In this document: positions 8,541 to 63,696 of the stretch, one piece after another
Layout of the letters: each line of letters starts with the position of its first letter
How positions within the stretch are numbered: the first letter of the stretch is position 1
Origin: Pollenia angustigena
Lineage: Eukaryota > Arthropoda > Insecta > Diptera > Polleniidae
Reading direction: 5' to 3'
Assembly (NCBI GenBank): GCA_930367215.1
Contig: OV884059.1
Location: 13,974,945 to 14,038,944 of the forward strand
Length of the DNA stretch: 64,000 bases
Made by a program: the position numbers and the translations under genes
Notes under the pieces: generated by a model
Told to the model about the DNA's origin: nothing
Seen by the model: the letters and a program-made list of their open reading frames with translations, nothing else
Databases searched by the model: none

Positions 8541-11500
8541 TTAATCGTGCTTTAATACAATTCTTTGTGGTTTACGTTTATTATCAGAATTTCCACTTGA
8601 ACTGGTACCAGCTGTAGAAGGTGACTGTTGCCTACTGTTGCGTACATCTAAACGTTCAAAAATAGCCCTGCGTGAGTTACTATTACCACCACTACCACTC
8701 GATGAGCCAATATCACGGCCTCTACTATTAGAATTTGTTCCAGATGTTCCAGAAGTATTAGATGAAGTTTTTAAAACGACTCTACGATTTGTAGAACTAA
8801 AGCTAGGCTTTGAAGTTCCATGGTTACCACCACTACCACGTGTATGCATAGATTTCCTGGCAATATTATGACTTTTAATATTAGGCTCGGGGGAGGGTGT
8901 ACGCGATTCTAAACGCTGTTTTGAGGCAGTTTCACGCGGAGGCGTGGGATCAGGCGAAGCTAATAGCATGTCCTCTTCATCTAACAAAAGATCATCTTCA
9001 TCATAGTCTAGCTGTACTTCATCCTCGCTGTGTGATGACATACGACGCTGTGACTGTGAGTGCTGATGAGGTTGAGGTTTTATAGCTGCTACTGTAGCTG
9101 AAGAAGATGAAGAATCCCTTTTCAATACCGGCTTTATAATAGCAGTATTTTGACTAATACTATTTGAGCCGCCACTACGTTCTCCACTTGTTGTGTTATG
9201 CTGCAAATGATCTGTAAGAGTTTTTTTAGCTTCTGGCAAAATTTTTGCAGTTGGTATGGTTTTTCTTTGTGTAGGTCTTCCATGATCATCGTTATCATTG
9301 TGTTCGGCTTGTCGCTTTTTAAGCGAGATTATTTTACGTTCGGCCACTACTTCTTTGAGTTTATGTGAGTTCTGCTGCTGCTGTTGGTGTTGCGTTATAG
9401 TTTTTGGTGGCGTATCATCTTTTTGTTGGGGTCCAACAGTTCGTTTTTCCTAAGATTTTTGTTGGGGAATTGTTTTTGTATGAATTTGTATTTTTTTTTT
9501 TACTTTTTTTAAACGAATTTTTTATTTTTTAAGTATTAATAAGGAATTAAAATCTAAATTAGTTTTCACTTAACATATGACATCTTCAAAGGATTTTAAA
9601 TGGTTTTTTATAAGGCACGTTTTTTTTCTTTTTGTCGGTAATTCAATTTTTAAGGCTTATAGAATATATTATTTTTTAAAACTTACCTCATATTGTTTTT
9701 CTTCAGCAGCTCTTCTACGTTTCATTTCTTTGTCTCGCATTATTTGTTCACGTAGAGCTTTTTGTTTTTCTATTTGCAAGCGGTAAGCACGAGTTTCTTC
9801 ATCTTCCTCAACCTAGAAAAATATTTAAAAAAATTTTAGACTTTGGTACTAAAAAAATTCCAAAGTAAAACATATATTGTTTATCTAAGATCGTCTAAGC
9901 ATATTTCCAAAAAAAATCTTGCTATTGCAGAAAACATGCAAGAAATTATTTGCGAATTGAAAAATGTAGCACATAACTGAGCAGAGAACGGACTTGTACG
10001 ATTGCAAAAAAATCGAAGTAAATGAACACCAACAAATACACTCGTTATGGTCATACAATCAAACTTGCGCAACCGCAAACATTCGCTGCTGGTTTGCAGT
10101 CATTCAAATAATGCACATCGTGCTTTGTTATTTATTCCATCATTTAGCTTCGTTTGTCAATTAAGATGTTTGTGTGTTTGGTCCGACAATGATTGTTTTG
10201 GCAAAGAAACAGTAGTTCTGTATATACAATGTATTCTTGTTATTGTTGTTAATTTTAACAAAGCGTCTCATCGAGTGGTTTATTGTTGTTATTGTTGTTA
10301 ATTTTAACAAAGCGTCTCATCGAGTGGACAATGACTACTTGAATGCAAAAGTATAAGAATGTGTGCCTTTTGAATTTACACAATTAAGTTATATTGCGTG
10401 CGCAACAAAAATGCAAACAAAGCACTTTCAATAAAAAACGAACACATGCAGAAATCAAATGTGTACGAAACGATGTAAAAATTACCAACGTTGAACTTTG
10501 TTTTGCAGGCAAAGAGTGAATGTAAATTTGAGCGTATGAATAAATCAAGAAAAATAGTGATTTTGCAGTTCTCTGTAACTGAGGCACTTTACAATTATTA
10601 TACAAAAGATTTTCAAATTGAAAGTTCTTAAGGGTGCCAAAGCATTGTTTGATTAATCGAGGTTAATAATTTAAAGCAAAAAAAAAAGCATTTACTTTGT
10701 TAAGTCTAATTTTTCATTATGCTTTTCTTAAAAAATTAACAAATCAAAAGCAATTCTAAAAAATGTATTTTGTGAAGTTTAGTTTCTTACTGTTAACATT
10801 GCGATTTAAATACATCTATAATAGCTTTAAATACTTTATTGCATCAAATTAAAAGTAACAAGAACGTACCTCTGATTTGTCACGATCGTTATTATAACGT
10901 CCTCTATTGCCACCAAAATTACCACCGCCACTACGATTTCCTGGAGATGGCGAATTACTGCGACGACGTTTACCATAATTACCACCACCGCCACCTTGAT
11001 TACGATTTTCGTAATCACGATCACGACTATTGGCACGGCGAAATCGATTGGGTCCCGGTCTATTACTATTATAACCACCCATAGGTCGATTACGATCTCT
11101 TTCGCGATCTTCACGATCTCTACTTACAGCACGTCCCATACGTGTATTCTTATCATCGTTAGTAGCACGATCACGGTCACTTCGTTCACGATCCCGATCA
11201 CGTTCTCTATCAAAACGATCATTTCGATTATTGGGACCACCATTTGGATGACGTTTAGGTGGAGTATAACTACGTTCACGCGAAACACTTCGTGGTGTTC
11301 GAGAACGAGAACGTGACCGACTACGACTGCGAGATCTACGACCAGGGGAAACATCTCTGGCATGACGACGTTTTTCAATATGTTCACGGTTTTTATTAAT
11401 AAATTCCTCTTGTTGCCGCAATAACTCTTCATCACTTTGTACTCGAGGTACATGGGTGTTTATGGCGTTCATGTATTGAGTTTCTTGTATAAATTTACTG

Positions 11501-19409: not shown

Positions 19410-21965
19410 TCAAAACAATAGCGGTTTTCACCCTTTGTATTAAGTGTACAACTCTGCTTTACTTAATACGATTTTATACTACAAAGCGTGAGTGTCTTTT
19501 TCGTTAGTATTATAAATTAATGAAGTTGTTGAGTGAGGAAAAGAGACAGATATAAGGTCTGTCTGCGTACACATATTTTGCGCAAAATGTTGTCTGCGTA
19601 CTCCAAATCTCTTGCAGCGAGAGAGCCAAAAAGAGAATTTTTGACAGTTGGAAGTTAGAGAACTTGCAAAATGTTACTGGAGAAATTTCCGCTTGCAAGA
19701 TTTTGCAAATAGTTTGAACAGCTGTTTGAATGAAATAGTTTTTGGGAAATGAAAATTTAAATTTAACAATGGCAGAGGTAAGTAGTTAGAATTGTGTTGA
19801 TTTTTAACGTTTATAATAAACTAGCTTAACCCGTGCGCTTCGCTACACTGCTTTAACCACTTCTTCAGTTGAGAGATACTTAATATATGCATCCTATGGG
19901 AGGTATTTCCCCCTGTGCCTACCGGCTTTATTTTTATTTTCAAAAGTGTAGCATACCATAAGAGTGACTTTTACAAAGTTTGAACATTCTCACTTAACAG
20001 TTCTTAAGATATGCGATATTAAACATTGGTGTCCCATGGGGGGTAACACTTCCCCCGCTGCTATTTTATTTCAGTTTTGGGGCTCTGAAGATCCTACTAT
20101 CAAAAGTTCAACAAAATCCGTGCAGTGGCTCTTAATTATATTTCTATCTATGAGGGGTACTGCTCCTTCTCTGTCAACCCCGCCCATTTTTATATTGAAA
20201 TTTAAAGTTAACCATAACAGTAGCTTTAACCACGTTTGAAGACTCTCCCTTTAATAGTTCTTCAGTTGAGTGATATTTAATATATGCATCCTATGGGAGG
20301 TATTTCCCCCCTGCGCCTACCCGCTTTATTTTTATTTTCAATAGTGTAGTATACCATAAGAGTGACTTCTACAAAGTTTGAACATTCTCACTATAACAGT
20401 TCTTAAGATATGCGATATTAAACATTGGTGTCCTTTTGGGGGTAACACTTCCCCCGCTACTATTTTATTTCAGTTTTGGGGCTCTGAAGATCCTACTATC
20501 AAAAGTTCAACAAAATGCATGCAGCGGCTCTTAATTATATTTCTATCTATGAGGGGTACTGCTCCTCCCCTGTCAACCCCGCCCATTTTTATATTGAAAT
20601 TTTCATTTTACCATAATAGTAGCTTTAACCACGTTTGAAGGCTGTCCCTTAAATAGTTCTTCAGTTGAGCTATATTTAATATATGCATCCTATGGGAGGT
20701 ATTTCCCCCCTGCGCCTACCGCTTTATTTTTATTCTCAATAGAGTAGTATACCATAAGAGTGACTTCTACAAAGTTTGAACATTCTCACTGTAACAGTTC
20801 TTAAGATATGCTATATTAAACATTGGCGTCCTATGGGGGGAACCACTTCCCCCGCTACTGTTTTATTTAAATTTTGGGGCTTAGAAGATCCTACTACCAA
20901 AAGTTCAACAAAATGCGTGCAGCGGGTCTTAAGATATGCGATATTAAATATTGGCATCCTATGGGGGGTACCAATTCCCCTGCCCCGATTTTGGATTTCA
21001 AAATCAACTAACCATCATCACTCCTCCCTGTACCTTCCCTAAAAATTTTATGGCAATCGGTCGAGCCGTTCTCGAGTTATGGAGTGACAATCAAAATGTA
21101 CACTTCTTTTTATATATATAGATTATATAAAACAAAACATTTAACTTCATGCTAGAAACATCCAAATATACAGTGCGTAAGTGGAGTGGAGATGGCAGAA
21201 CCGATAGAACCAGCAGAACTTTGTGGGACAACCTTTGTAATTGAAGAGGCGAGTATTTGGAATTGTGTTCCTGGCGAGCACTTCACATCCAAATTATTTT
21301 TCTCCGTTTTCAAGCTGTTGGAGGGCACTGTATTGGGCATTTCATTCTTTTTTTCCATTGTAAGCCGGCACTATGTTGGGCAATGTAAGCAAAAGAAGTT
21401 TTATAAAAAACCCGACAAATAAAACTAAAAACTAAGAAGAAATTGAATTTACCAAACTAATAACAGTGTAATAAACAAGTTTTTTAATTTACAACACCTT
21501 CTAAGCTTCACTTTAATTACATAATAATTTTTTAATTTACCTCGAGAATTCAATTTTGCGTACACATATTCTAAAATTCTTTTGCTTTGTTATTTCAATT
21601 GTTTACACACCGATCAGCTGTTTTCTTGCAAAATTTCACTGGATACTGTCTGCGTACTTTTTGAGATTTTTTCAGCCTATAGAGTAATATTGGTCTTACT
21701 CTCCCAAAAAAATTTACTGAGTATTTGCTACTGGAAAAGTACCCAGACAGACCTATAGTTTCTTCAATTGTTTTACATAGCGTTTACATTTGCCAGTACT
21801 GGCAAGACAGTAGCAATTCATTCAAACTTTTTCACTAATTCATAAACACTTTTACAGCTATTTTGTAAATCTTAGTACTTATACTAAATTAATAAGATTC
21901 ACAAGGTCTACAAGGGATTTAACTATCAAGGGTGAAAATTGCTATTAATAATAGCACGTGTTGAA
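19410..21965. mobile_element. Composite nested inverted-repeat element
   Basis: An outer weak inverted pair (CAATAGCGGTTTTCACCC near 19420 and GGGTGAAAATTGCTATT near 21940) encloses a clearer pair at 19551 (ATAAGGTCTGTCTGCGTAC) and 21756 (GTACCCAGACAGACCTAT). The inner 2.2 kb unit contains the 397 bp tandem array at 19862-21120. A short open stretch at about 21194-21420 is not recognised. No transposase is visible. Confidence 0.5.
19862..21120 (+). repeat. Tandem array, about three 397 bp units, with a retroelement-like 3' end
   Basis: Units begin near 19862, 20260 and 20656, each starting at CTTCAGTTGAG and TATGCATCCTATGGGAGG, and all share CATTGG.GTCC and TCAACCCCGCCC blocks. The array is preceded by ACCCGTGCGCTTCGCTAC (from about 19831) and ends with ATCGGTCGAGCCGTTCTCG and a TATATATATAGAT tail. 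Such a head and tail are seen on many invertebrate non-autonomous retroelements, so this looks like one element with an internally amplified module. Open frames here repeat with the unit and are not called as genes. Confidence 0.65.
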
Positions 21966-22284: not shown

Positions 22285-22435
22285 TGCTAGGTACACACAG
22301 TGCAATCTACATGCAATCTGTTTCAATGCAACCTCAAAATATCAAAGCGTTTTGATGTTGATGCAATCTGGAATGAATGAAAATTAATTTAATTCACTAG
22401 ATTGCATAAATGTGTTGCATAGTGTGTACCCAGCA
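22285..22435. mobile_element. 151 bp MITE, family G, copy 1, TTA target duplication
   Basis: The ends TGCTAGGTACACACAGTGCA and TGCATAGTGTGTACCCAGCA are inverted repeats, and TTA flanks at 22282-22284 and 22436-22438. The body is almost identical to 40540-40690, so both insertions are relatively young. The right end lies about 170 bp upstream of the chimeric gene's start codon. Confidence 0.9.
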
Positions 22436-22478
22436 TTACACAATTATAATGTATTATTAGTTTTTAGAAAAGAAAACA

Positions 22479-22604: not shown

Positions 22605-25600
22605 ATGTCTGACTTGAAGTGAGTGAAAATAAAACTTATTATTTATTTTTTTATGATAAAACGTGTGCATATCTAATAAATTACTAAACAAAGTGTTAAA
22701 TACATATTGCTGTAAAATATTAATATAAAATTTTGAAAAAACGACAGCTGCGTATCAAGTGCAGAAACGATTGAATATTTAATTTTTTTCATAAATTTAA
22801 AAAAAATATTGTTAATAAATGCTTTTACTTCTTGTTGCAGTGATGACTTATTAAGTTTTGACATAGGAGATATTATAGATGATGTTATAGATGATCAGAT
22901 CTTCATTGGAGCTTACGAAGATGAATTGTTACTTTCAGATGATGATGGTGAGTACAGTAAACGTTTGATTATAACTTCCATTTATTTTATGTGCCTTTAT
23001 TTTGTTTTGGGATTTAGAAAAATATCTTGCATTAAAATCTAAAGCTGTGGAATGGGCTAAATCACAAATTAAAGATAAACCCAAAGAAACCCCAACACAA
23101 GTTCCAGTTAAAAATTTGAGTGAAACCCAAAAATCGTGCCAGACAAAAAATGAATTTAATAAATTACAAGAAAATTCCGTGCTGGCTCAAGTTCAAACAC
23201 AACGCATACCTGCAAATATTAATGCGGCGCAATCGACCTCACAAGAATTTAAAACTCTTCCAGAACATACAAATGCTACAATTTATAAAGAAACAAATAT
23301 TACTGGTCAAAATTCTACAGCAAATACTTTAAAAGAAATTGGATTGGATCAAAGTTCTACCATATCCAATTCTGCAGCCAGTATAGCAAATTATTCTTGT
23401 GCATATTCTGTACTACAAAGTTCACTCTTCTGTACAGCAGAGTTCGCAAGAGTAGGTGGCCTTTATCCACCTTTTCAACATCCTGTGTTGCGTTTTCCAC
23501 CTCACGGCAATATATCCTTACTACCACCATCACCCTTTACACATTTGGGCGGTTTAGCTTCAATTACATTACCACATCCCATTACCAACCCTCTTGTTCA
23601 AGGTCAACCAATCCCACCACCAACACTACAAACCAACACAAATCCTTGTGCACCACATCTACGCAGTTCCTTACAGAATACACTACATGGTCCTATGGCA
23701 GGGCCTCATTATGATCCAAATAATCCTTATCATAGGCCTAGTCATCCGATTGGTTTTCGACCAGGACACGTGGTAGGTTTCCGCCATCCCAATCCTGCAG
23801 CTACTAGTAAAATCGTACAAGAAACTCAAACCGCCATAAACAGCCATGCACCCCGAGTACAAAATGATGAAGAGTTATTGCGCCAAAAAGAAACTCAGAA
23901 CGCCATAAACAGCCATGTACCTCGAGTACAAAATGATAAAGAGTTATTGCGCCAACAAGAAGAATTCATTAATAAAAACCGTAAACATATTGAAAAACTT
24001 CTTCAAGCTAAAGATGTTTCCCCTCGTCGTAGATCTCGAAATCGTCAGTCACGTTCTCGTTCTCGAACACCACGAATTGTTTCGCGTGAGCGAAACTATA
24101 CACCACCTAAACGCCATCCACATGGTGGTCCTAATAGAGAACGCGATCGGGATCTTAAGGGAAGTGAACGTGATCATGCTGCAAATGATAAAAAGAATAA
24201 AAGTAAAGAACGTTCTGTAAGTACAGATCGTGAAGAACGCGAAAGAGAACGCAAAAAACGCGAAAGAGATCGTAAAGATCGTCAGTCACGTTCTCGTTCT
24301 CGAACACCACGAATTGTTTCGCGTGAACGGAGCTATACACCACCTAAACGCCATCCAAATGGTGGTCCCAATAGAGAACGCGATCGGAATCATAAACGAA
24401 GTGAACGTGATCATGCTGCAAATGATAAAAAAAATAAAAGTAAAGAACGTTCTGTAAGTGCAGATCGTGAAGAACGCGAAAGAGATCGTAAAAAACGTGA
24501 AAGAGATCGTAAAGATCGTCAGTCACGTTCTCGTTCTCGAACACCACGAATTGTTTCGCGTGAACGGAGCTTTACACCATCTAAACGCCATCCAAATGGT
24601 GGTCCCAATAGAGAACGCGATAAGGATCATAAACGAAGTGAACGTGATCATGCTGCAAATGATAAAAAGAATAAAAGTAAAGAACGTTCTGCAAGTACAG
24701 ACTGTGAAGAACACGAAAGAGATCGTAAAAAACGTGAAAGAGATCGTAAAGATCGTCAGTCACGTTCTCGTTCTCGAACACCACGAATTGTTTCGCGTGA
24801 ACGGAGCTATACACCATCTAAACGCGATCCAAATGGTGGTCCCAATAGAGAACGCGATCGGGATCATAAACGAAGGGAACGTGATCATGCTGCAAATGAT
24901 AAAAAGAATAAAAGTAAAGAACGTTCTGTAAGTACAGATCGTGAAGAACGCGAAAGAGATCGTAAAAAACGCGAAAGAGATCGTAAAGATCGCGAAAGAG
25001 ATCGTAAAGAACGTGAACGAGATCGCGAAAGAGATCGTAAAGATCGTGAAAGAGATCGCGAAAGAGATCGGGAAAGAGATCGTGAAGTTCGCGAAAGAGA
25101 TCGTGAGGTTCGCGACAGAGATCGTAAACATCGCGAAAGAGCTCGTCAAGTTCGAGAAAGAGATCGTGAAGTTCGAGAAAGAGATCGTGAAGTTCGCGAA
25201 AGAGATCGTAAAGATCGCGAAAGGGATCCTAAAGATCGCGAAAGAGATCGTAAAGATCGCGAAAGAGATCGTACTCGATCAGGACCAAATCGATTTCGAC
25301 ATGCCATTAGTCGTGATCGTGATTACGAAAATCGTAATCAAGTTAGCGGTGGTGGTAATTATGGTAAACGTCGTCGCAGTAATTCGCCATCTCCAGAAAG
25401 TCGTAGTGATGATAGTGATTTTGGTGACATTAGAGGACGGCATAATAATGATCGTTACAAATCAGAGGTAAGTTCTTGTTACTTTCAATTTGCTTTAACA
25501 AAGTATTTAAAGCTGTGATAGTTTATCTATTTAAATCGCAATGTTAAAAGCTAGAAACAGAACACTTCACTAAATACATTTGCACAATAAAAAATTAAAA

Positions 25601-28600
25601 CTTTAGTTAATTTGACTTACGGCTAATTTCATCAACTTCATTTAAAACTAACTATTACTTTAACTTCCAGTTAACAATATGAAGATCTTTAAGAATAATA
25701 ATTGTAATTGTATGATAAGCTACTTTTTATCACTTTACTTTACTTTATCACAAATACTTCTTTGCATGTTATCTGCAATAGTAAGAATTTTTTTACACAT
25801 AAAAAGTTAAGGAATTCCGAAAACTTTACAAATGTGTGTTAGGTCCGTCGTAAACTATTAAGACATCTTTTTAGGTTAATCAAGTAGGGAAATGTTAGAT
25901 AACTAAGGATCTATTTATTTAATCGAAATTTAACTGGCAAAACAACTCAATTAAATTTTTACACACCGGTCTTTACTGGGATGTCGTCCTAGAATTAACT
26001 AAATCTAATTTGAACATAAACCTCTTGGAGTTTCTTCTAGAGTATTTAAGTATTTATAAGCCTTTTGGCCTTTTGGCCTTTGGGCTTTTTTTACAAAATG
26101 AAATGTTAAATAAATAAGTAAATATACGGTACACAGACGTATTCGAATGTCTATTGTATATGGTGGCTTTCATTTACATTTTTTTATATGTACGCATTTA
26201 GCTTAATTTCTTCTGTCGTTGTATAGAATTTTAGCCTTGATATCGTTTATAGTATATATCGAATCTATCTTTAATTTTAAATGACTTGAATAATATCTAA
26301 TCGGTGGACCTTAGATTTTATTTTTACATACTTCGTTCTCGGAAATTGAACATTGTGATGTAAGATAAATTGAAAGAATTTGATTATTTTTTACCTTTAT
26401 CAATAAGAGAGATCGTGTCTAACGCGACTCCCTATATTGGATTTGTTCTGTCCATTCTTAAAAGTAGCTTAGAAGTAGCCATATTCAGACTTATTTCGTC
26501 AAAAACACTGAATTCTAGTGCTATATTATTATTGCTGCGTTCTTTAGAAACTCCATGACATTTTTAATATCCCTGTAGACTTTGGACTCTTTGTGTACTT
26601 AAAATTTTTGTTCATAAGCACATTTTTGCATTAAACTTCGCACTTTTTATTATAATGTAAATAACCACACATATGCTTAGATTATTCGGATGGCTAATGA
26701 TGTTTCATTTCATTTATTATTAGTATTTATAATACTTTAAGTTCTCTCTAACATTCAACATATTTAATACTTAAAATCATATTAATTATATATTATTATT
26801 TTTTATAAAATTTACACATTTTCTTTTAAATACATTATAATTTTGTTCTGTCTTAATGTCATTTGTAAGTGTGTTAAATAATTGAAGTCCTTTATAAAAT
26901 AATGATCTCTGCATTGTTGTCGTATTTGCCCTTTTTAACCTGAAGTCTTCAGCATTTCGCAGTTGATATGGTTGTACTTCACCGACATATTTGATTTACT
27001 CGCATAGATATTCTGGAGCGTTACCATGTTTAATTTTATGTATAAAACTCAGAGTATTGAATTCAAGTCGCTGTTCGATATTTAACCATTTAAGTGTGTT
27101 AAGCATAGCTCTTATTGGAGTTTATCTGTTGCATTTTAAAATAGTCCGCATTGCTTTATTTTGTAACTTTTGTAATCTATTTAATTGATATTCATTTCAT
27201 CATGTATATATTATTGTTGATCCGAACTCAAAATGCGATTTATTGCCGTCATTATTGACACTTTATTTCTAATTCTTTTGAAAAATCCAATTTTTTTTTA
27301 CCAATTTTTTTGCATATGTACTCAATATGATCTTTAAATTTCATATCTCGGTCTATTAAAAATCCAAGATATTTAACATTTTCAACTTTCTCTATAACTT
27401 CTTCGTTAATTTTGAAGGTTGTTTCACTATTCATATTTATTTGGAGCATTTTTGTCTTTTTTTCATTTAATTTTAATTTGTTAATTTTTAACCATGTGTT
27501 GACATTATTTATATCATTTAACATATTTTCTTGACATTCTTCATTTGTAAACCCTTCTGTGCATGGTCCAATGAATAGGTCTGCGCAAGAAGCCTGATGA
27601 TCATTGTTTATGTTCTTTTTAGTTGTCAAAAGTTGTTTACATTTTGCTTATATGTGCATGTATACGTTTGTTTACGTTTATGGTATGCCACACATACACG
27701 TTTTTTCCTTTTGCTTTGTATATGTGTTAGTAAATTTTTGACAACTAAAAAGAATCGTTTTTTGTTTTTGTTCAAGTAAGCAGACCTATTCATTGGACCA
27801 TGCTTCTGTGTATATGAGCGTATCGTCAGCGTATAAAACAACTTCACATTTATGTAGTACATTTGGCATATCATTTATGTATATAATCAATAGTAAGGCA
27901 CCCAATATTGATCCCTGTGGAACACCGAAATCATTAATAATTGTGCCAGATTTTATTCCATTAACTCTAGTAATTTGCTTTCTGTCCTTCATATATGATT
28001 CAAACCATTTGAGCTCTTTGCCTTGGATGCCGTACATATATAATTTCTGAATTAATATTTTCCTGTCTATAGTTAAAAAATAATAAAATAAAAGAGCGTT
28101 CGATCTTTTAAAGTCTAAAAATATAGCCATGATTTTCCCAGTTTTTTTGATGTTTTTCCATCGATTTACAACAAAGTTCACAGCAGTTTCGCATGAAAAT
28201 TTTTTTCTAAAACCTGATTGATATTTGGAAAATAATTTATTTTCCTCCATATATTTTTTCAGCTGTTCCTTTACAATTTTTTCTAATACTTTTTCACATG
28301 TTCTTAACGTATTTATAGGCCGATATTCTTCACATTTTTTTTTTGTCTTTGCAACTTTTTCAACCGGGGTAACCATTGTTTCCTTCCAGTTTTCAGGGAA
28401 ATTTTTCCTATTATATGCCAATTATCTAGAATAATTTTTGTTGATATTTTACAGTAGTCCGGTTTGTTTTTTAGTTTCATTACTTTAATTTTAAGATCTA
28501 ATATTGTTATTGCACTGAATTTGAATCGTTGGTTAGTCATATTTATTTGATTGGTATACTGCACATCTTCAATTGAGTCCGTTATTACCTTAATACTTTG

Positions 28601-29975
28601 CACAAAATATTTGTTGAAATTACTAGCTATGTCAATATTTTCCTTAAATTCTACGTTGTTAAATATCACAGATTTTATCACATTTTTATTCTTCCTTATT
28701 ACTAAATCTTTTATCTCTCTCCACATTTGTTTTTGATGCTTTGCGTTATTTATTTTATTGTCAATGTATTTAAATTTTTCCTTTTCAATTTTAACCTTGT
28801 ACATATTTCTAGCTGATTTGTAATCTGCCCACGCTTCAATAGTGTTTTCAATTTTAGCGATTTGGTATTTATTTATTTTGTGTCTTTTTAAATCCCGTAA
28901 TTCATTACTAAACCATTTATTTACATTATTTTGTTCATTTACTGTTTTTTTGAAAGTAAATTTTTGTATTGCCTCCTCCAAGCATTTATCAAACATTCGT
29001 ACATTTTCATTAACATTTATATTTTCGTGATAGCACATTTTTCCATTTATTTCTCTTGTAAATTTGGTTTTGTTATATTTAAAAAATTCTAAAGTTTTAT
29101 TTTCCTTTTCAGTATTCGTTACTCTATCCTTTATTAATTTTTTAATCATTTCGTGATCTGATATTTTATTTTTATTGCAATTTTGCACCGTTATTTCAGT
29201 AATGTTTGTAATAACATAATCAATTTATAGTTCTGGATACATTTGTTACACGAGTGTATTCGATTACCATTTGTTTAACACCATTATCGTTCAATGTACT
29301 TTCGATTCTATTTCTATAAAAATTATTTGTTGACCAATCTATGTTAAAATCTCCGGTTATAATTATGTCATTAGTTTCTTCACACAAATCTTCTAAAGTC
29401 TCCTGAAACATTTCACAGAATTCCGCTTCAGAGCCACTGGGCGATCTGTAAACTGCTAGAATTATCAATTGTACATTTTTTCGCAATGCTGTACAGGCTA
29501 TAATCCAATAGTTAGATTGTGCTATTTTTTTAAATTTTTTTGTGACTCCATTCTTTTTTGTAGTATATGATTACGCCCCAGTTCTTGAAGAATTTGACAA
29601 CAATACTAGTTGATTATAATCATGTATATATATTTCATCTTCGACAATATCTTCTGTCATATGTGTTTCCGATAATATAAAAAAATCTGGCTTTTCCGTT
29701 GCGTACAGGCTATAATCCAATATTTAGATTGTGCTATTTTTTTAATTTTTTTGTGACTTTCCGTTCTTTTTTGTAGTATATGATTACGCCCCCAGTTCTT
29801 GAAGAATTTGACAACAATACTAGTTGATTATAAATCTTGTATATATATATTTCATCTTCGACAATATCTTCTGTCATATGTGTTTCCGATAATATAAAAA
29901 AATCTGGCTTTTCCGTTGCTGCTATTTTTTCTACTTGATTAAAGTTATTTGTAAGGCCTTGTACGTTTGTATATA

Positions 29976-30023
<48 letters not shown>

Positions 30024-33000
30024 TTTAATTGTTAAACGAACCCATTTGTCTCTTTCTTATTTGAAGTTTATTTTGGTACACTGGGCATATTTTACTATAA
30101 GTCCCATGATTTTCATCTAATCCCATGTTTAATTTCTGATTCATCCTTATACAATTTATACATTTATTTACCGGTTCTTTATTACATTCTCTGGATTTGT
30201 GGTTTCCATGGCATTTAAAACACATTTCCTGATTCTTACATTCAATTTATAAATGATTGAATCCATTGCTTATCTTAGATAAGCAATACATTTTTTACTT
30301 GATAATCTTTTCAGTACCAAAGTCTTAAATTATTGTGTTTTTTTTTTAAATATTTTTCTAGGATGAGGAAAATAAAGAAACTCGTGCTTACCGCTTGCAA
30401 ATAGAAAAACAAAAGGATTTACGTGAACAAATAATACGTTACAAAGAAATTAAACGTAGAAGAGCTGTCGAAAAACAATGCGAGGTAAATTTAAAATAAT
30501 TTTTCTAATAAGCCTCACTGCCTGTTCATCTTATTCCCAACGAAGACTTTGATCTTTTAACTTACATTAAAAACAAAAACGAATTATAAAATATTGTTTA
30601 TGTTTAACACGTAACTTAAGCGAACTAAGTTTTCGTTCGAAATGGATGAACAGGCCATTTAAAATTGAATTACCGAGAAAAAAAAAAGTTTTCTATAAAA
30701 AAACAAATTGAATGAATTTTGTTGAGAGAAAACGGATTTAAATTTTAATTCCTTATTAATGTACATACATACATATATAAAATTAAATTATTATAAATAC
30801 AAAATTAAAAAAAACACAACTTTATACAAAAACTATTCCCTAACAAAAATCTTAGGAAGAACAAAAAGATGATGCACCACTACAAATTATTGCGCAACAT
30901 AGACAGCTGCAGAACTCAGATAAAGACCAAGAAGTAGTAGTCGAACGTAAAATAATCTTGCTTAAAAAGCGACAAACCGAACACAGTGATAACGAAGATC
31001 CTGGAACCCTAACACAAAGAAAAATCATACCAACTGCAAAAATAATGCCAGAAGTTTCAGTTAAAACCGAAAGGGAAAAATGTGAGAATGAGAAACTTAT
31101 AGAAGTAGTGGACGAACACAATGATAACGATGATCATGAAACCCCTATTACACAAAGAAAAACCATACCGATTGCAAACATTTTGCCAGGTGTTTTAGGT
31201 AACACCTCAAGCGAAAAATGTGAAAATGAGAAAAACCAAGAGGTAGCGGCCGAACGTAAATTAATCTTGCTTGAAAAGCGACAAACCGATCACAATGATA
31301 ACGATAATCATGGAACTCCTACAAAACGAAAAACCATACCAACTGCAAAAATTATGCCAGAAGTTTTAGCTTACACCGCAAGGGAAAAATGTGAGTATGA
31401 GAAACTAATAGAAGTAGTGGCCGAACACAATGATAACGATGATCATAAAACCCCTACACAAAGAAAAATCATACCAACTGCAAACATTTTGCCAGAAGTT
31501 TTAGTTAACACCGCAAGCGAACAATGTGATAATGATAAACTTAAAGAAGTAGTTTGCCTATATACACAAAGAAAAACCATACCAACTGCAAAAATTTTGC
31601 CAGAAGTTTTAGTTAACACCGCAAGCGAAAAATGTCAGAATGAGAAACTCAAAGAAGTAAAGTCCGAATGTAATATAATCTCGCTTCAAAAGCTACAAGC
31701 CGAACACAATGATAACGATGATCATTGGAGACCTACATATAGAAAAACCATACCAACGGCACACATTTTGCCGGATGTTTTAGATAGTATCGCAAGCGAA
31801 ATATGTGAGAATAAAGAACTTAAAGAAGTTATGACCGAACGTAATATAATCTTGCTTAAAATGCGACAATCCAAACACAATGAAAACGATGATGTTGGAA
31901 CCCCTTCACAAAGAAAAACCATACCAACTGCTAAAATTTTGCCAGAATTTTTAGTTAACACCGCAAGGGAAAAGTGTGAGAGACTCAAAGATTTAGTGGC
32001 TGAACACGATGATAAAGATGATCATGAAACCCCTACACCAAGGAAACCTATACCAACTGCAAACATTATGTTAGAAGATTCAGTTAATACCGCAAGCGAA
32101 AAATGTGAGAATGAGAAACACAATGATAACGATAATCATGAAGGACCTACACAAGGAAAAACCATACCAACTGCAAACATTTTACCAGAAGTAGTAGGTA
32201 ACACCGCAAGGGAAAAATGTGAGAATATAAAAAATGATGTGACTGTTTCGAAGAAGATTCTTAGGACTAGGGAGAGGTACAGGATGAGAAAAGCGATTAG
32301 AAAGGAAATCATGGCAGCTTCATTATACGAAGGGGATGATTTCAGGTTATATGTCAATATTAAAATATGTAATAATGAAATATCAGGTTTACTCGATAGC
32401 GGAGCCACTGTAGCGTGCCTAGGAAAGGGTTGTTTAGAATTCGTTCAAAGGACGGGTCTACCAGTTTTTGATTTTGACTTTTCTATAAAAACCGTTGATG
32501 GCAGCCGCCATAAAATTGTGGGTAGTATAAGGGCAAAAATAGATTTTAATAAAATTAGTGAGGAAATTACCTTTTATTTAGTTCCAACTTTAAATAGACA
32601 ACTTTTTCTGGGGGTGGATTTCATGAAAAAGTTTAATTTGCTTGAGGGCGTGAGTAGATTGTCTTCTAGTGGCGTCAGTTTGGCAACTGCAAACATTTTG
32701 CCTGAAGTTTTAGTAAACTCCGCAAGCGAAAAATGTGAAAATAAGAAACTCAAAGAAGCAGTGTCCGAACACAATGAACACCATGGTCATGAAACCCCTA
32801 CAAAAAGAAAAACCGTACCAACTGCAAACATTTTGCCCGAAGTTTTCGTTAACTCCGCAGGCGAAAAATGTGAGAATAAAAAACTCAAAGAAGATGTGGC
32901 TGAACACAATGATCAAGATGATCCTGAAAAACTTACACAAAGAAAAACCATACCAACTGCAAACATTTTGCCCGAAGTTTTAGTTGACTCCTCAAGCGAA

Positions 33001-33624
33001 AAATGTGAAAATGAGAAACTCAAAGAAATAATGGCCGAACGCAATGATAAAGATGATCATGAAAGCCATACAGAAAAAAAAACTATACCAATTGAAAACA
33101 TTTTGCCAGAAGTTTTAGTTGATAGCGCAAGGGAAAAATGTGAGAATACAAAAACTGATGTGAACGATTCCCAAAAGCTTCTAAAGGCTATTGATAGGTA
33201 CAATATGAGGAAAAAGATAAGGAAACAAATCATGGCAGCGTCATTATACGAGGGGTATAGTTTCAGGTCGTATACCAATATTAAAATATCTAATAATGAA
33301 ATATCAGGTTTACTTGATAAGGGATCCACTGTATCGTGCTTAGGAAAGGGTTGTTTAGAATTCGTTCAAAAGACGGGGTTACCAGTTTCTGATTTTAACT
33401 TTTTTATAAAAACCGTCGATGGCAGCCCCCATAAAATTGTGGGTAGTATAAGGGCAAAAATAGATTTTAATCAAATTAGTGAGGAAATTACCTTTTATTT
33501 AGTTCCAACTTTAAAAAGAACACTTTTTCTGGGGATGGATTTTATGAAAAAGTTTAATTTGCTTGAGGGCGTGAGTGGTCCGTCTACTAGTGGCGTCAAT
33601 GTTTCAATGGCCTCTATTAGGTAG
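22605..33624 (+). CDS. Chimeric paralogue of the RBM33-like gene with two retropepsin domains, 1820 residues
   Basis: The coding exons are 22605-22618, 22841-22947, 23018-25467, 30362-30484 and 30856-33624, all with GT..AG introns and one uninterrupted frame. Exons 1, 2 and 4 match parental exons 1, 2 and 5 in sequence and phase. Exon 3 corresponds to parental exons 3 and 4 with the intron and flanking coding sequence deleted, leaving a novel join near 23427-23475 (LFCTAEFARVGG). Residues about 383-698 are four 79-residue RS repeats, followed by an Arg-Asp/Glu run. Residues 858-898 are the conserved basic helix. The last exon has 13 QRKTIPTA.ILPE units and two retropepsin-like domains with active-site Asp at about 1412 (LLDSGAT) and 1719 (LLDKGST). 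The parental tail ending RIVLKHD is gone. Intron similarity shows DNA-level duplication, not retroposition. Function is unknown; the intact frame across 5.4 kb of coding sequence suggests it is, or was recently, expressed. Confidence 0.8.
24043..24990 (+). repeat. Four in-frame 237 bp tandem repeats encoding the expanded RS domain
   Basis: CGTCAGTCACGTTCTCGTTC recurs at 24043, 24280, 24517 and 24754, a constant 237 bp (79 codon) period. Each unit reads QSRSRSRTPRIVSRERS, then TPPKRHPNGGPNRERD and KKNKSKERS, ending in Arg-Asp/Lys pairs. The units differ at scattered positions. The parental gene has one such unit. From 24940 to 25270 a finer Glu-Arg-Asp-Arg repeat follows. Confidence 0.95.
25468..26699. 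other. 5' part of the paralogue's large intron, before the LINE 3' end
   Basis: AT-rich intron sequence. It starts with the GTAAGT donor at 25468. A short repeated TTTTGGCC motif is at about 26060-26080. I see no gene of its own; an open frame near 26370 has no recognisable similarity. Confidence 0.5.
27562..27802. mobile_element. MITE inside the LINE reverse transcriptase, 8 bp target duplication
   Basis: Perfect 23 bp inverted ends starting CATGGTCCAATGAATAGG. CTTCTGTG is directly repeated at 27554-27561 and 27803-27810. Farther in, TTAGTTGTCAAAA and TTTTGACAACTAA pair. It splits the LINE reading just after the YADDTLIY motif, so it is younger than the LINE. CA..TG ends with 8 bp duplication fit a hAT or P-type mover. 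Confidence 0.9.
29490..29920. repeat. Tandem duplication of about 211 bp in the LINE endonuclease region
   Basis: GTACAGGCTATAATCCAAT begins two nearly identical blocks, at about 29493 and 29704, each running to CTGGCTTTTCCGTTG. The second differs by a few indels. The duplication breaks the endonuclease frame. Confidence 0.9.
29978..30021. repeat. (TA)n microsatellite
   Basis: Pure AT dinucleotide run within the LINE remnant. Confidence 0.9.
30519..30657. mobile_element. Divergent copy of the GGCCTGTTC foldback MITE in the last intron of the paralogue
   Basis: The ends TGCCTGTTCATC and ATGGATGAACAGGCCA and the internal ACAAAAACGAATTATAAAAT block match 34230-34368, but the arms have decayed. 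It lies in intron 30485-30855. It is clearly older than the copy at 34230. Confidence 0.75.
30958..33160 (+). repeat. Thirteen degenerate in-frame repeats of the QRKTIPTA.ILPE unit
   Basis: Each unit is roughly 40-55 codons: EHNDNDDHE, then TPTQRKTIPTANILPEVLVN, then ASEKCENEKLKEVV; some also carry the parental ERK.I.L.KRQ segment. Nine units precede the first protease domain and four lie between the two. The parental gene has one unit, which lacks the VNTASEKCENE part. Unit lengths vary through small in-frame deletions. Confidence 0.9.
32341..32655 (+). other. Retropepsin-like domain 1 in the chimeric paralogue (DSG active site)
   Basis: The encoded segment starts FRLYVNIKICNNEISG, has LLDSGATVACLG with the catalytic Asp at codon 32395, a flap-region stretch (IKTVDGSRHKIVGSIRA) and ends FLGVDFMKKFNLLEG. 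This is the fold pattern of the single-domain aspartic proteases of Ty3/gypsy-type retroelements, which act as dimers. It is preceded by a basic RERYRMRKAIRKEIM linker. No gag, reverse transcriptase or LTR accompanies it, so it looks captured. Confidence 0.85.
33262..33575 (+). other. Retropepsin-like domain 2 in the chimeric paralogue (DKG instead of DSG)
   Basis: This is a close duplicate of domain 1, 921 bp downstream, including the linker before it. The catalytic Asp is kept (codon 33316), but the following Ser is Lys and the next residues are GST, giving LLDKGST. Retropepsins almost always have D-T/S-G, so activity of this copy is doubtful. The ending FLGMDFMKKFNLLEG is conserved. Confidence 0.85.
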
Positions 33625-33708
33625 GAGACCTCCAGGGGAAATTGTTAGGGGTATTTCACGCCAAAGATTTAAAAAAAATAGTTTTTAACTCTATACGTTT
33701 TATGTTTA

Positions 33709-33714
33709 AATAAA
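33709..33714 (+). terminator. Probable polyadenylation signal of the chimeric paralogue
   Basis: AATAAA lies 85 bp after the stop codon at 33622-33624, the first canonical hexamer downstream. Confidence 0.5.
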
Positions 33715-34229
33715 AAATACAATTTTAAAAATTTGTATACAAATATGTCTTAATATTATATTATTATTTAAGAACTTAACGTAAATAATATTTTTAGTAT
33801 TAGTAACCCAAAACAAAACTAGCTGCTAAAATAACTAACATGGCTCACAAAAGTTTTGTACTGTTGTATTATTAATTAGAATTTTTATCATTTTTGCTTT
33901 TAACATGGACTTAAACCATTTTATTTGTTTAGCACACAACATGTGATTTTTAATCTACTATAAAAAACTACAAAGTCGTTTACGAGAACCAGATCCGAAA
34001 TAAGGCTAAAATTAGTATGTGTAATAGAAAATGTTAATTGAGCTCTCTAATAGTAATCTTAAAATACGCTGGACACCTGGAATTAGTTTTCGTGTTCCAT
34101 AGTTCTGAATTTTTTAAAATCTGTGGGAAAGAAAGGAGATGCTCAAAATTTTCATTTCGAAAGAAAATATCCTAAAAGGTTATTATGAAAAAGTTGATTT
34201 TTAATGCCAAAACCTTGAAGAAAAATTTA
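33715..34229. other. AT-rich DNA downstream of the chimeric gene
   Basis: No coding frame or inverted repeat is supported here. Confidence 0.4.
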
Positions 34230-40539: not shown

Positions 40540-40690
40540 GGCTGGGTACACACAGTGCAATCTACATGCAATCTGTTTCAATGCAACCTCAAAATATCAA
40601 AGCGTTTTGATGTTGATGCAATCTGGAATGAATGAAAATGAATTTAATTCACTAGATTGCGTAAATGCGTTGCATAGTGTGTACCCAGCA
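40540..40690. mobile_element. 151 bp MITE, family G, copy 2
   Basis: Near-identical to 22285-22435 over its whole length (GTACACACAGTGCAATCTAC; GTGTGTACCCAGCA). Here a TTA duplication is not clean, and the first base of the left end has changed. Confidence 0.9.
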
Positions 40691-41976
40691 TAATACTATT
40701 GATATATCGAAATATTGATATTAGAAAATATCATCAACACGATATATTTTTTTAAATTTTCCCATCACTAGCAGCCTCCAAAGGATTTTTTTTACATCAA
40801 AACTTGTTCACACCACGCATTAGTGTTGTTAACTTTTGTATTTCAAAACGCACTAAAATCGAGAAAAACTGGTATTTTCGGAAAAAACACAATTCAAAAT
40901 TTTTAATTTTAATTGAAATTTATTTTAAAATAAATATTTTTTTTTATAAAAAAGAACATTTTAACATTAAAAACTTCATCTGGCCATAATACAGCTATTT
41001 TTTTTAAATTTGAATGTTTTTAAAACATCGTGGATATTGCTATTAATATTTTCACTATCTAGTAGTTGGTATGTTTAACAACAAGAATCTTCCTGTTGTA
41101 ACCCATTTTAAATATATAGTAAAGCATTAAAGATCGGTTATTAATTTCGGACTTAAACAAATATAACTTCTGCAGTTGATTAAGGAAGCAACAAAATTTT
41201 AAATGTTATTTTCGCTAATGCATCCAAACATTTAACTTCAGTCCAAAAATCTAAGATAGAATCCAAATTTTCCATTTGATAACGTGAGTTATTCATTTTC
41301 AATACCAGGTGAAAATTTCACATCGGTCTCAAATTGTGCAGTTAATGGCGTAATATCATTTTTATAAGGGAATAAAACGGTTTATTTTACGTAAAATTTC
41401 AAAACTGGAGGGTAATCTGCACAGTATCTCTTCAACTGATTCTCTTGTAAATTGGTAGAAGTTTATTGATACCTTTTTTTTTGTTTCGCCGTCGATTATC
41501 TTTACCTCACAAGCTTCTTTAAACCAAACTTTCCAAGGTCAGCTATCAATAACTCCTGTTAAAAATCTGTCAAGTTTAGATATTTTTAAAATTAAAATTT
41601 TCTATTTTTTGTATTATGCATATGAAATCGCCTTTGTGGCGCAAACCAGGAGTGGTAGCAGCGAGATTACAACAATTGTTCTATAAAACAAACACCAGGG
41701 CTTTTTATTATTGTTATGTGAAACGAACTGTAAAGCAGCAAAGGGGATAATAAAAGACAAATGAAAAACAAACAAGAAAAAAATTATATATTTAAGTCTT
41801 TACCCAAAATTGTTATTCATTATAAATCACTTTGATTTTCTTTTTAATTGTATCACTTTTTACTTTGATTAAAAAACTTGTTTACTTTTTAAGCTAGAAA
41901 TTTAACACTTGACAGTTCGTATAGCAAAACAAGCAAATAAAAAAATAATCAGCAGGCTTTCCGAGACTATCTGTTA
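40691..41976. other. AT-rich intergenic DNA, no gene seen
   Basis: No supported exon, RNA gene or long inverted repeat. Confidence 0.45.
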
Positions 41977-62584: not shown

Positions 62585-63150
62585 TTAAAATATATACACA
62601 AAAGTCCAAAAGAAAGCATTAAAGACTAAAAATGACATGGGAAATAACACTCGTGCCTTGGCATCAATCCAGTGCGATATTTCTTGGGGTGTTAATGTAG
62701 TCCAGCCAGCACGATTTTGTGTCTCATTATCCAAACCCTGTTCCAAAGAACCCACATCCATTTTTTGATTATCTGTCATGGTAGTAAATGTCGTTACTTT
62801 CGATATATTATCAGTTTCCTCGTGTTCATTGATTGTGGTGATGGGTATATTGTGCACCGTTAAATAATTATTAAATTTTGGAGCACCAGTTAAAGAGATA
62901 TTATCACTGCCCATTGTAGTGCCTGTAGAAAATGAACGCGATCGAGAGGCTTTACGTCGCGAGAGATGTGGTGATAGAGTTGATTTTAAAATATGCTTGC
63001 TGCTCATTGATTTGACATCCACATTGCGTTTACGTCGCCATATAGTATTAACAAAAGCAAATTCAACTAGACTGCCAAAAATGAATAATGTACAACCCAA
63101 AAACCATACCTCAGACACTTTAATATAGCTGACCTTGGGCAGAGTTTTAC
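62585..63150 (-). CDS. Cys-loop ligand-gated chloride channel, pHCl type, last coding exon (partial)
   Basis: The exon starts at 63150 after acceptor CCCACACAG and is entered one base into a codon. It reads TLPKVSYIKVSEVWFLGC, the M2-M3 loop and start of M3, continuing through M3 (FIFGSLVEFAFVNTIWRR). A long cytoplasmic loop follows, with a conserved basic part (SKHILKSTLSPHLSRRK) and a variable Ser/Thr-rich part. The exon ends with M4 (VLFPMSFLVFNAFFWTFVYI) and a stop. Family knowledge: these pentameric channels gate chloride in neurons and epithelia, and the VSYIK..E.WF pattern with FVNTIWRR fits insect pH-sensitive chloride channels better than GluCl, Rdl or HisCl. The N-terminal binding domain and M1-M2 lie beyond 63150, probably outside the window. 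Confidence 0.8.
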
Positions 63151-63696
63151 CTGTGTGGGTAAGTTTAAAATTTAAATAATTTTAAAATATGTATAGTATA
63201 TAAATACTACTTAAATCAGATAATTTAATTATTATTTTTATTTTAATCTTTGTATTGATAAAAATAAATAAATAAAAATAATATGTTTTAGATCATTTAA
63301 ATTAATAAATTTATAGTCAAGTACTTTTATTATTATATTGTAAAAGAACATATTTTTTTGAAGATTAATTTCTATTCTCTTGTTTTTTTTAAATTAATTT
63401 TATTTTATTGTGTTGAATTTTTTTACGCATAACAAACCTATACATGATATTAACAAACACGAAGTGAACAAGCCTTTATCATTTAATATCAAGTACAATT
63501 CTAAAACCATTTTCAATATACATAAACTGATTACTATATATTGAAATATTCTTATTTATTTATTTATTTATTTAAGAGTTCATTTTGTAATAAGAAAGTT
63601 TTGTAATAAAAAATAAGAAAAAAAATTTGGAAAATAATTGTTTGACTTACGGATTTTGGCTTTAGGTAGTCCAAATTTTAAATATGTAGTTTAGAA
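63151..63696 (-). other. Intron of the chloride channel gene
   Basis: AT-rich sequence upstream of the last exon. I see no further exon up to the end of the window. Confidence 0.5.

Follow-up and report, generated by a model that had tools for sequence, protein, structure and literature searches.

Has a fly gene that took up the protease of a mobile element become a gene in its own right, or is it a duplicate in decay? The question is raised by a stretch of 64,000 nucleotides of Pollenia angustigena (assembly GCA_930367215.1, contig OV884059.1, positions 13,974,945 to 14,038,944, forward strand), referred to here as the window. It contains an RBM33-like gene (the parent) and a neighbouring copy of it whose last exon carries two retropepsin-like protease domains related to those of Ty3/gypsy elements. 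The evidence favours, with a probability of nearly 0.6, a young, single-copy and maintained chimeric protein-coding gene, a candidate for a new gene caught while forming. Genome-wide searches covered the assembly of 1.37 Gb in 31 contigs, the window being located on a contig of 250 Mb.

The copy comprises five exons on the forward strand, which join into a single frame of 1820 codons closed by one terminal stop, as proposed by an earlier note on this DNA. Its four introns are all GT-AG, with GTGAGT, GTGAGT, GTAAGT and GTAAAT as donors. The note also described an RBM33-like duplicate fused to a retroelement protease, and this is borne out by the homology to the parent and by the match to Ty3/gypsy pol. 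The part that it took to be copied from the neighbouring gene of 1059 residues, two-thirds of the protein, is indeed parental in origin and amounts to about half, with 898 of the 1820 residues contributed by exons 1 to 4 and a tandem array in exon 5 that is partly parental as well. Copy and parent are arranged head to head with their start codons 9040 bases apart. The exons and several introns of the copy align to the parent, so that the duplication was DNA-mediated and inverted. Parental exons 3 and 4 are fused in the copy, intron 3 and the flanking exon bases having been swapped for a short filler with the frame kept. Of 292 aligned bases in introns 1 and 2 (22619-22840 and 22948-23017), 30 differ between copy and parent (Jukes-Cantor distances 0.10 and 0.14). 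This divergence is lower than that of the synonymous sites (dS 0.28-0.33), possibly as a result of gene conversion or of constraint at the 5' end.

The protein closest to the parent in the database belongs to Cochliomyia hominivorax (78% identity over the length of the parent), followed by those of Musca and Stomoxys, which places the genome among those of calyptrate flies. A protein named RNA-binding protein 33 by its depositor only (P0017) matches the parent with an E value of 8e-20 and 35% identity over 19% of its length. Vertebrate RBM33 carries an RNA-recognition motif. The whole parent matched no Pfam family at E <= 10, hence no such motif was found in it, nor was one found in the two stretches of the copy that were scanned, residues 1-380 and exon 3, and the label RBM33-like is used for this reason.

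Past the parental codons KILPE, exon 5 of the copy is an array of 13 registers whose spacing is in whole codons. The host part of the array unit is one single segment in the parent, conserved in other flies. The tail of the unit (about VLVNTAREKCEN) resembles a stretch located ~100 bases upstream of the protease in a Ty3/gypsy element of the same genome: 10 of the 13 units score above all 300 shuffles, one ties with them and two score below. An origin of this tail in the next codons of the parent was rejected, 317 of 500 shuffles reaching the observed score. No match to the array-unit sequence was found elsewhere in the assembly. In the two remaining forward frames of exon 5 there are 58 and 134 stops, numbers on which a chance open frame was rejected.

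Exon 5 as a whole scores above the Pfam cut-offs of Asp_protease, gag-asp_proteas and RVP, with two stretches in each case. Of the two retropepsin-like domains that the earlier note saw in this exon, domain 1 passes two of the three models by itself (Asp_protease and RVP), and domain 2 passes none but comes just short of RVP (20.3 bits vs a cut-off of 20.7). LLDSGAT, beginning at residue 1410 in domain 1, contains the D-S/T-G motif, which is absent from LLDKGST, beginning at residue 1717 in domain 2. The structure predicted for domain 1 from an alignment of ten rows has a predicted local distance difference test score (pLDDT) of 83 and resembles the proteases of DDI and of retroviruses (best E 3.9e-7), pointing to a retropepsin-like fold; an alignment of only two rows gave a pLDDT of 49 and no usable fold. 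The model is of domain 1 only, and in the alignment of the tandem domains the reverse transcriptase of the element rows fell on domain 2. No Pfam model of gag, reverse transcriptase, RNase H or integrase matched exon 5, in agreement with the earlier note as to gag and reverse transcriptase, and no dedicated search was made for the long terminal repeats that it had also reported missing.

The source of the protease was looked for in proteins and in the assembly. Residues 1330-1570 were searched against the protein collection within a length range set for the whole protein (1001-3185 residues), and 8 proteins were obtained from 1790 candidates (P0024-P0031), all 8 with a reverse transcriptase domain. 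The best of these pol proteins, P0024, is 61% identical to the protease block over 146 residues. With the protease region alone, none of 26 candidates in the protein collection was confirmed. In viral contigs, none of 9 pattern matches was confirmed. A 601-base probe of the end of exon 5 gave at least 49 matches in the assembly from 36 first-look candidates, all counts being lower bounds: 13 in the copy, 1 in the parent and 35 elsewhere. The latter all start at query base 184 or beyond, which places them in the protease, outside the array unit. Twelve element loci were examined, and in 10 of them the protease frame is uninterrupted and has 61.6-69.2% identity to domain 1; the exceptions are L010 (a stop) and L011 (a frame break). 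The element-derived block finishes at codon 1507, ahead of the reverse transcriptase. Judged by these matches, the protease domains of exon 5 are derived from a Ty3/gypsy protease. Two element copies on different contigs, L003 and L005, differ at 4 of 3378 positions when compared without alignment, and this near-identity suggests recent activity of the family.

The reading frame provides the main argument for maintenance. On the codon composition and the missense changes observed, one would expect about 20 stops in the absence of selection, and none was seen (P about 1e-9); the parental part of the copy alone gives 6.9 to 8.1 expected, again with none seen (P 3e-4 to 1e-3). Changes within the array were counted on a minimum spanning tree of its units. 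Pairwise distances assign about a tenth of the copy-parent differences to the parent (9.5 of 86), and the expected stop count is little altered by this. In a neutral simulation the copy remained free of stops in 3 of 500 runs at 0.02 substitutions per site and in 0 of 500 at 0.05 and above. Simple indels are in frame in 8 of 8 cases in exons vs 3 of 15 in introns (P = 3e-4), where some alignments are poor; this count leaves out two end-of-block gaps (7 and 4 nt), a complex deletion with filler across exon 3, intron 3 and exon 4, and the larger in-frame duplications. The statistics support selection having kept the frame open as far as the C-terminal region.

Constraint on the residues is low. 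In the protein tree, which was built without the array and the RS expansion and with only one of the two internally duplicated pieces, the branch of the copy has a length of 0.32 and that of the parent about zero. The ratio of nonsynonymous to synonymous substitution rates (dN/dS) between copy and parent is 0.48 over 457 codons including poorer alignment, and cutting the poorly alignable stretches brought it to 0.39 over 425 codons; because the parent hardly changes, the copy's own ratio is placed at ~0.35 to 0.76, according to how dS is divided between the two. Pairwise values among the 237-bp RS repeats range from 0.29 to 1.01 on few changes. A codon tree of elements and domains, one node of which has a support of 50, gives an omega of 0.08 for the elements vs 0.63 for the host branches (difference P = 2e-9). 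Between domains 1 and 2, the codons that are invariant in four pol proteins give a dN/dS of 0.31, and the remaining codons 1.18. Selection at the level of composition, for a hydrophilic protein, was considered and is unsupported: hydrophobic residues were gained 23 times in the parental part (23.5 expected) and 21 times in the array (27.7 expected, P = 0.1).

The main alternative to a maintained gene is a duplicate on its way out, a gene that no longer matters and whose open frame is a remnant explained by recency or by tandem copying of stop-free units, and several results lean towards it or otherwise count against the maintained gene. Among 148 sites fixed in the fly outgroups, 30 are changed in the copy and 1 in the parent, and the parental part of the copy has lost most residue-level constraint. 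Changes in the array (49.8 synonymous vs 171.2 missense) are at the neutral ratio, and the replacement spectrum is near neutral in the array and in the parental part alike. The omega of the host branches is not significantly below 1 (P = 0.15), nor is that of domain 1 (0.29, P = 0.07), and domain 2 looks neutral (1.2, P = 0.79 vs 1). Residues changed between the two domains are not significantly fewer at pol-invariant positions (9 of 57) than at the others (20 of 84, P = 0.29). Domain 2 has Lys instead of Ser in its D-S-G motif, and the domains match solved retropepsins weakly in sequence (best E 0.016 and 0.025). The upstream region of the copy differs from that of the parent, homology ending ~12 bases before the ATG, so the copy has a different promoter region, if any. 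The copy had been called intact by the earlier note, which holds for the frame and not for the residues. It had overlooked the array, the RS expansion, the fusion of parental exons 3 and 4, the lost parental C-terminus and the missing motif Ser of domain 2. The note had also named a dN/dS near 1 together with frame breaks in close relatives as grounds against the gene; of these, low residue constraint was found, with a frame unbroken at this locus. Set against the stops expected and not seen in the whole copy and in its parental part, the GT-AG borders kept in four of four introns and the exon indels all in frame, a gene in decay is judged unlikely. A frame that is kept while residues drift fits a maintained protein in need of read-through to its C-terminal region, for which domain 1 would be the best candidate.

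The protein may also be maintained with its protease domains acting as dimerisation or scaffold modules and not as enzymes, a tentative possibility. In ASPRV1 the motif Ser keeps the dimer together (PMC11402058, in excerpt), and its loss from domain 2 agrees with modules, as does a constraint on domain 1 that is weak and not significant; domain 1 has nevertheless the full LLDSGAT and an omega lower than that of domain 2, the difference not being significant (P = 0.17). The high missense rate in a frame that is kept, the repeated internal amplification (RS repeat and array) and the presence, in this genome, of related elements in near-identical copies would suit a fast-evolving gene in genetic conflict with that element family, or in the germline or sex determination, but omega was not shown to lie clearly above 1 for any class of sites, and replacements follow a spectrum that looks neutral, so that this explanation is given little credence. 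Even less probable is a join that is not a gene, in which exon 5 would be a separate frame or a misassembly and not the end of the copy's transcript: the acceptor ahead of exon 5 is orthologous to the one ahead of parental exon 6, the head of the exon aligns, and one frame passes through all five exons. The remaining parental C-terminus is not present in exon 5.

For the chimeric gene, three events are shown by the sequence. The RBM33-like gene was copied as DNA, introns included, and inverted next to its parent. A piece of Ty3/gypsy pol, comprising the protease and stopping before the reverse transcriptase, was joined in frame behind KILPE in the last exon, with the loss of the parental C-terminus; in most array units the piece also includes a short run that resembles the element ahead of its protease. 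The joint region was amplified in tandem, a second protease copy included. The statistics support, in addition, that selection kept the frame to the C-terminal region while most residue constraint was relaxed. The predicted product is RS-rich, largely disordered and probably nuclear like RBM33, the one basis for this location being that human RBM33 acts in nuclear export (PMC9186391, in excerpt). In the manner of retropepsins, domain 1 may pair with its counterpart in a second molecule to form a weak protease or a dimerisation module, and domain 2 is probably decaying. A nuclear RS protein with a working retropepsin duplicated in one chain, the two domains pairing within the molecule in a recent re-run of the duplication assumed for pepsins, and with a role in mRNA processing or in conflict with this element family, has a slim chance of being correct. 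The roles suggested by the earlier note, a protease brought to the export or splicing machinery, self-processing, and a function in sex or the germline, are hypotheses.

In the protein tree the copy groups with the parent after the split from Cochliomyia (support 96/95), and shared derived sites for this grouping are 1 vs 1; the duplication is provisionally placed after that split. A parental query of 558 residues gave 8 matches among 17 candidates in the assembly, located only at the parent and copy loci. The fusion protein is absent among the 8 proteins retained from 1790 candidates, in a collection that may not include close relatives, and within our literature searches no retropepsin joined to an RS protein was listed.

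Table 1. Positions of the copy, its parts and the parent gene within the window
Feature	Position	Strand	Remarks
Parent RBM33-like gene, 6 exons, 1059 residues	8541..13565	-	gene model, protein relatives
Lone parental segment from which the array units stem	9230..9365	-	alignment to array; conserved in other flies
Copy exon 1 (start codon)	22605..22618	+	parental homology stops ~12 bases upstream of ATG
Copy exon 2	22841..22947	+	gene model, alignment to parent
Copy exon 3: fusion of parental exons 3 and 4 with loss of intron 3; expanded RS region	23018..25467	+	
237-bp RS repeat, 4 copies, within exon 3	24041..24992	+	repeat scan
Copy third intron, 4894 bp, with antisense reverse transcriptase fragment of another element	25468..30361	+	
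Copy exon 4	30362..30484	+	gene model, alignment to parent
Copy exon 5, 922 codons and stop; head aligns to parental exon 6	30856..33624	+	
Tandem array in exon 5: 13 registers, broken by protease domain 1; parental segment and element-like tail	30928..33165	+	
Element-derived block 1, protease domain 1 (LLDSGAT, Asp 1412)	32245..32682	+	
Element-derived block 2, protease domain 2 (LLDKGST, Asp 1719)	33166..33603	+	
AATAAA downstream of copy stop; sole one within 33625-34100	33709..33714	+	

Other sequences were identified around these features. The third intron of the copy holds an element fragment on the minus strand, in which positions 27786-28421 are an antisense reverse transcriptase (PF00078, E 6e-24) and positions 28313-29224, on the same strand, form an open frame with no Pfam match. 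Two copies of a repeat (22286-22471 and 40540-40728) share 91% identity; the first is located ~130 bases upstream of the start codon of the copy and could have supplied a new promoter region. A tandem repeat of 399 bp lies between parent and copy at 20000-20932, with 2.3 copies in the scanned stretch. Finally, an exon at 62585-63181 (minus strand) encodes the transmembrane region of a neurotransmitter-gated ion channel (PF02932).

If the copy is expressed, it would be a host gene gaining a mobile-element protease, with parent, copy and element relatives present in one genome so that each step is readable, and a gene in which the frame is protected while the residues change. If it is not, it is still a clear record of the assembly of a chimeric exon. 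Pepsins are assumed to stem from the duplication of a single retropepsin-type domain (excerpt of PMC2642776), and the tandem pair of the copy bears on the origin of two-domain aspartic proteases.

Among known systems, DDI1 and DDI2 are likewise host proteins with a retropepsin-like domain, and it is DDI proteases that the model of domain 1 matches best in structure. They carry ubiquitin-related domains, are ancient and widespread, and have one conserved protease domain (PMC2642776, in the part available), whereas the copy has two such domains, derived from a Ty3/gypsy family of the same genome and attached to an RS protein. ASPRV1 (SASPase) has a single retropepsin domain towards its C-terminus with a D-S-G-A motif (excerpts of PMC2642776 and PMC11402058) and matches the copy weakly in sequence; it is a skin enzyme with shown self-processing (PMC11402058, same excerpt), and the rest of the copy is unrelated to it. 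The fly Ty3/gypsy pol polyproteins are the source of the protease block, and the copy differs from them by the lack of reverse transcriptase, RNase H and integrase matches in exon 5 and by the higher omega of the host branches. With its parent the copy shares exons 1 to 4 and the array segment, the parental C-terminus being gone, and the export role attached to RBM33 is taken from the human protein and not from fly genes. A parallel in kind is offered by host-transposase fusions and host-foreign chimeras, in which a host gene is likewise joined to a mobile-element or foreign domain; the arthropod survey of such chimeras removed metazoan transposable elements (PMC13389597, in the portion available).

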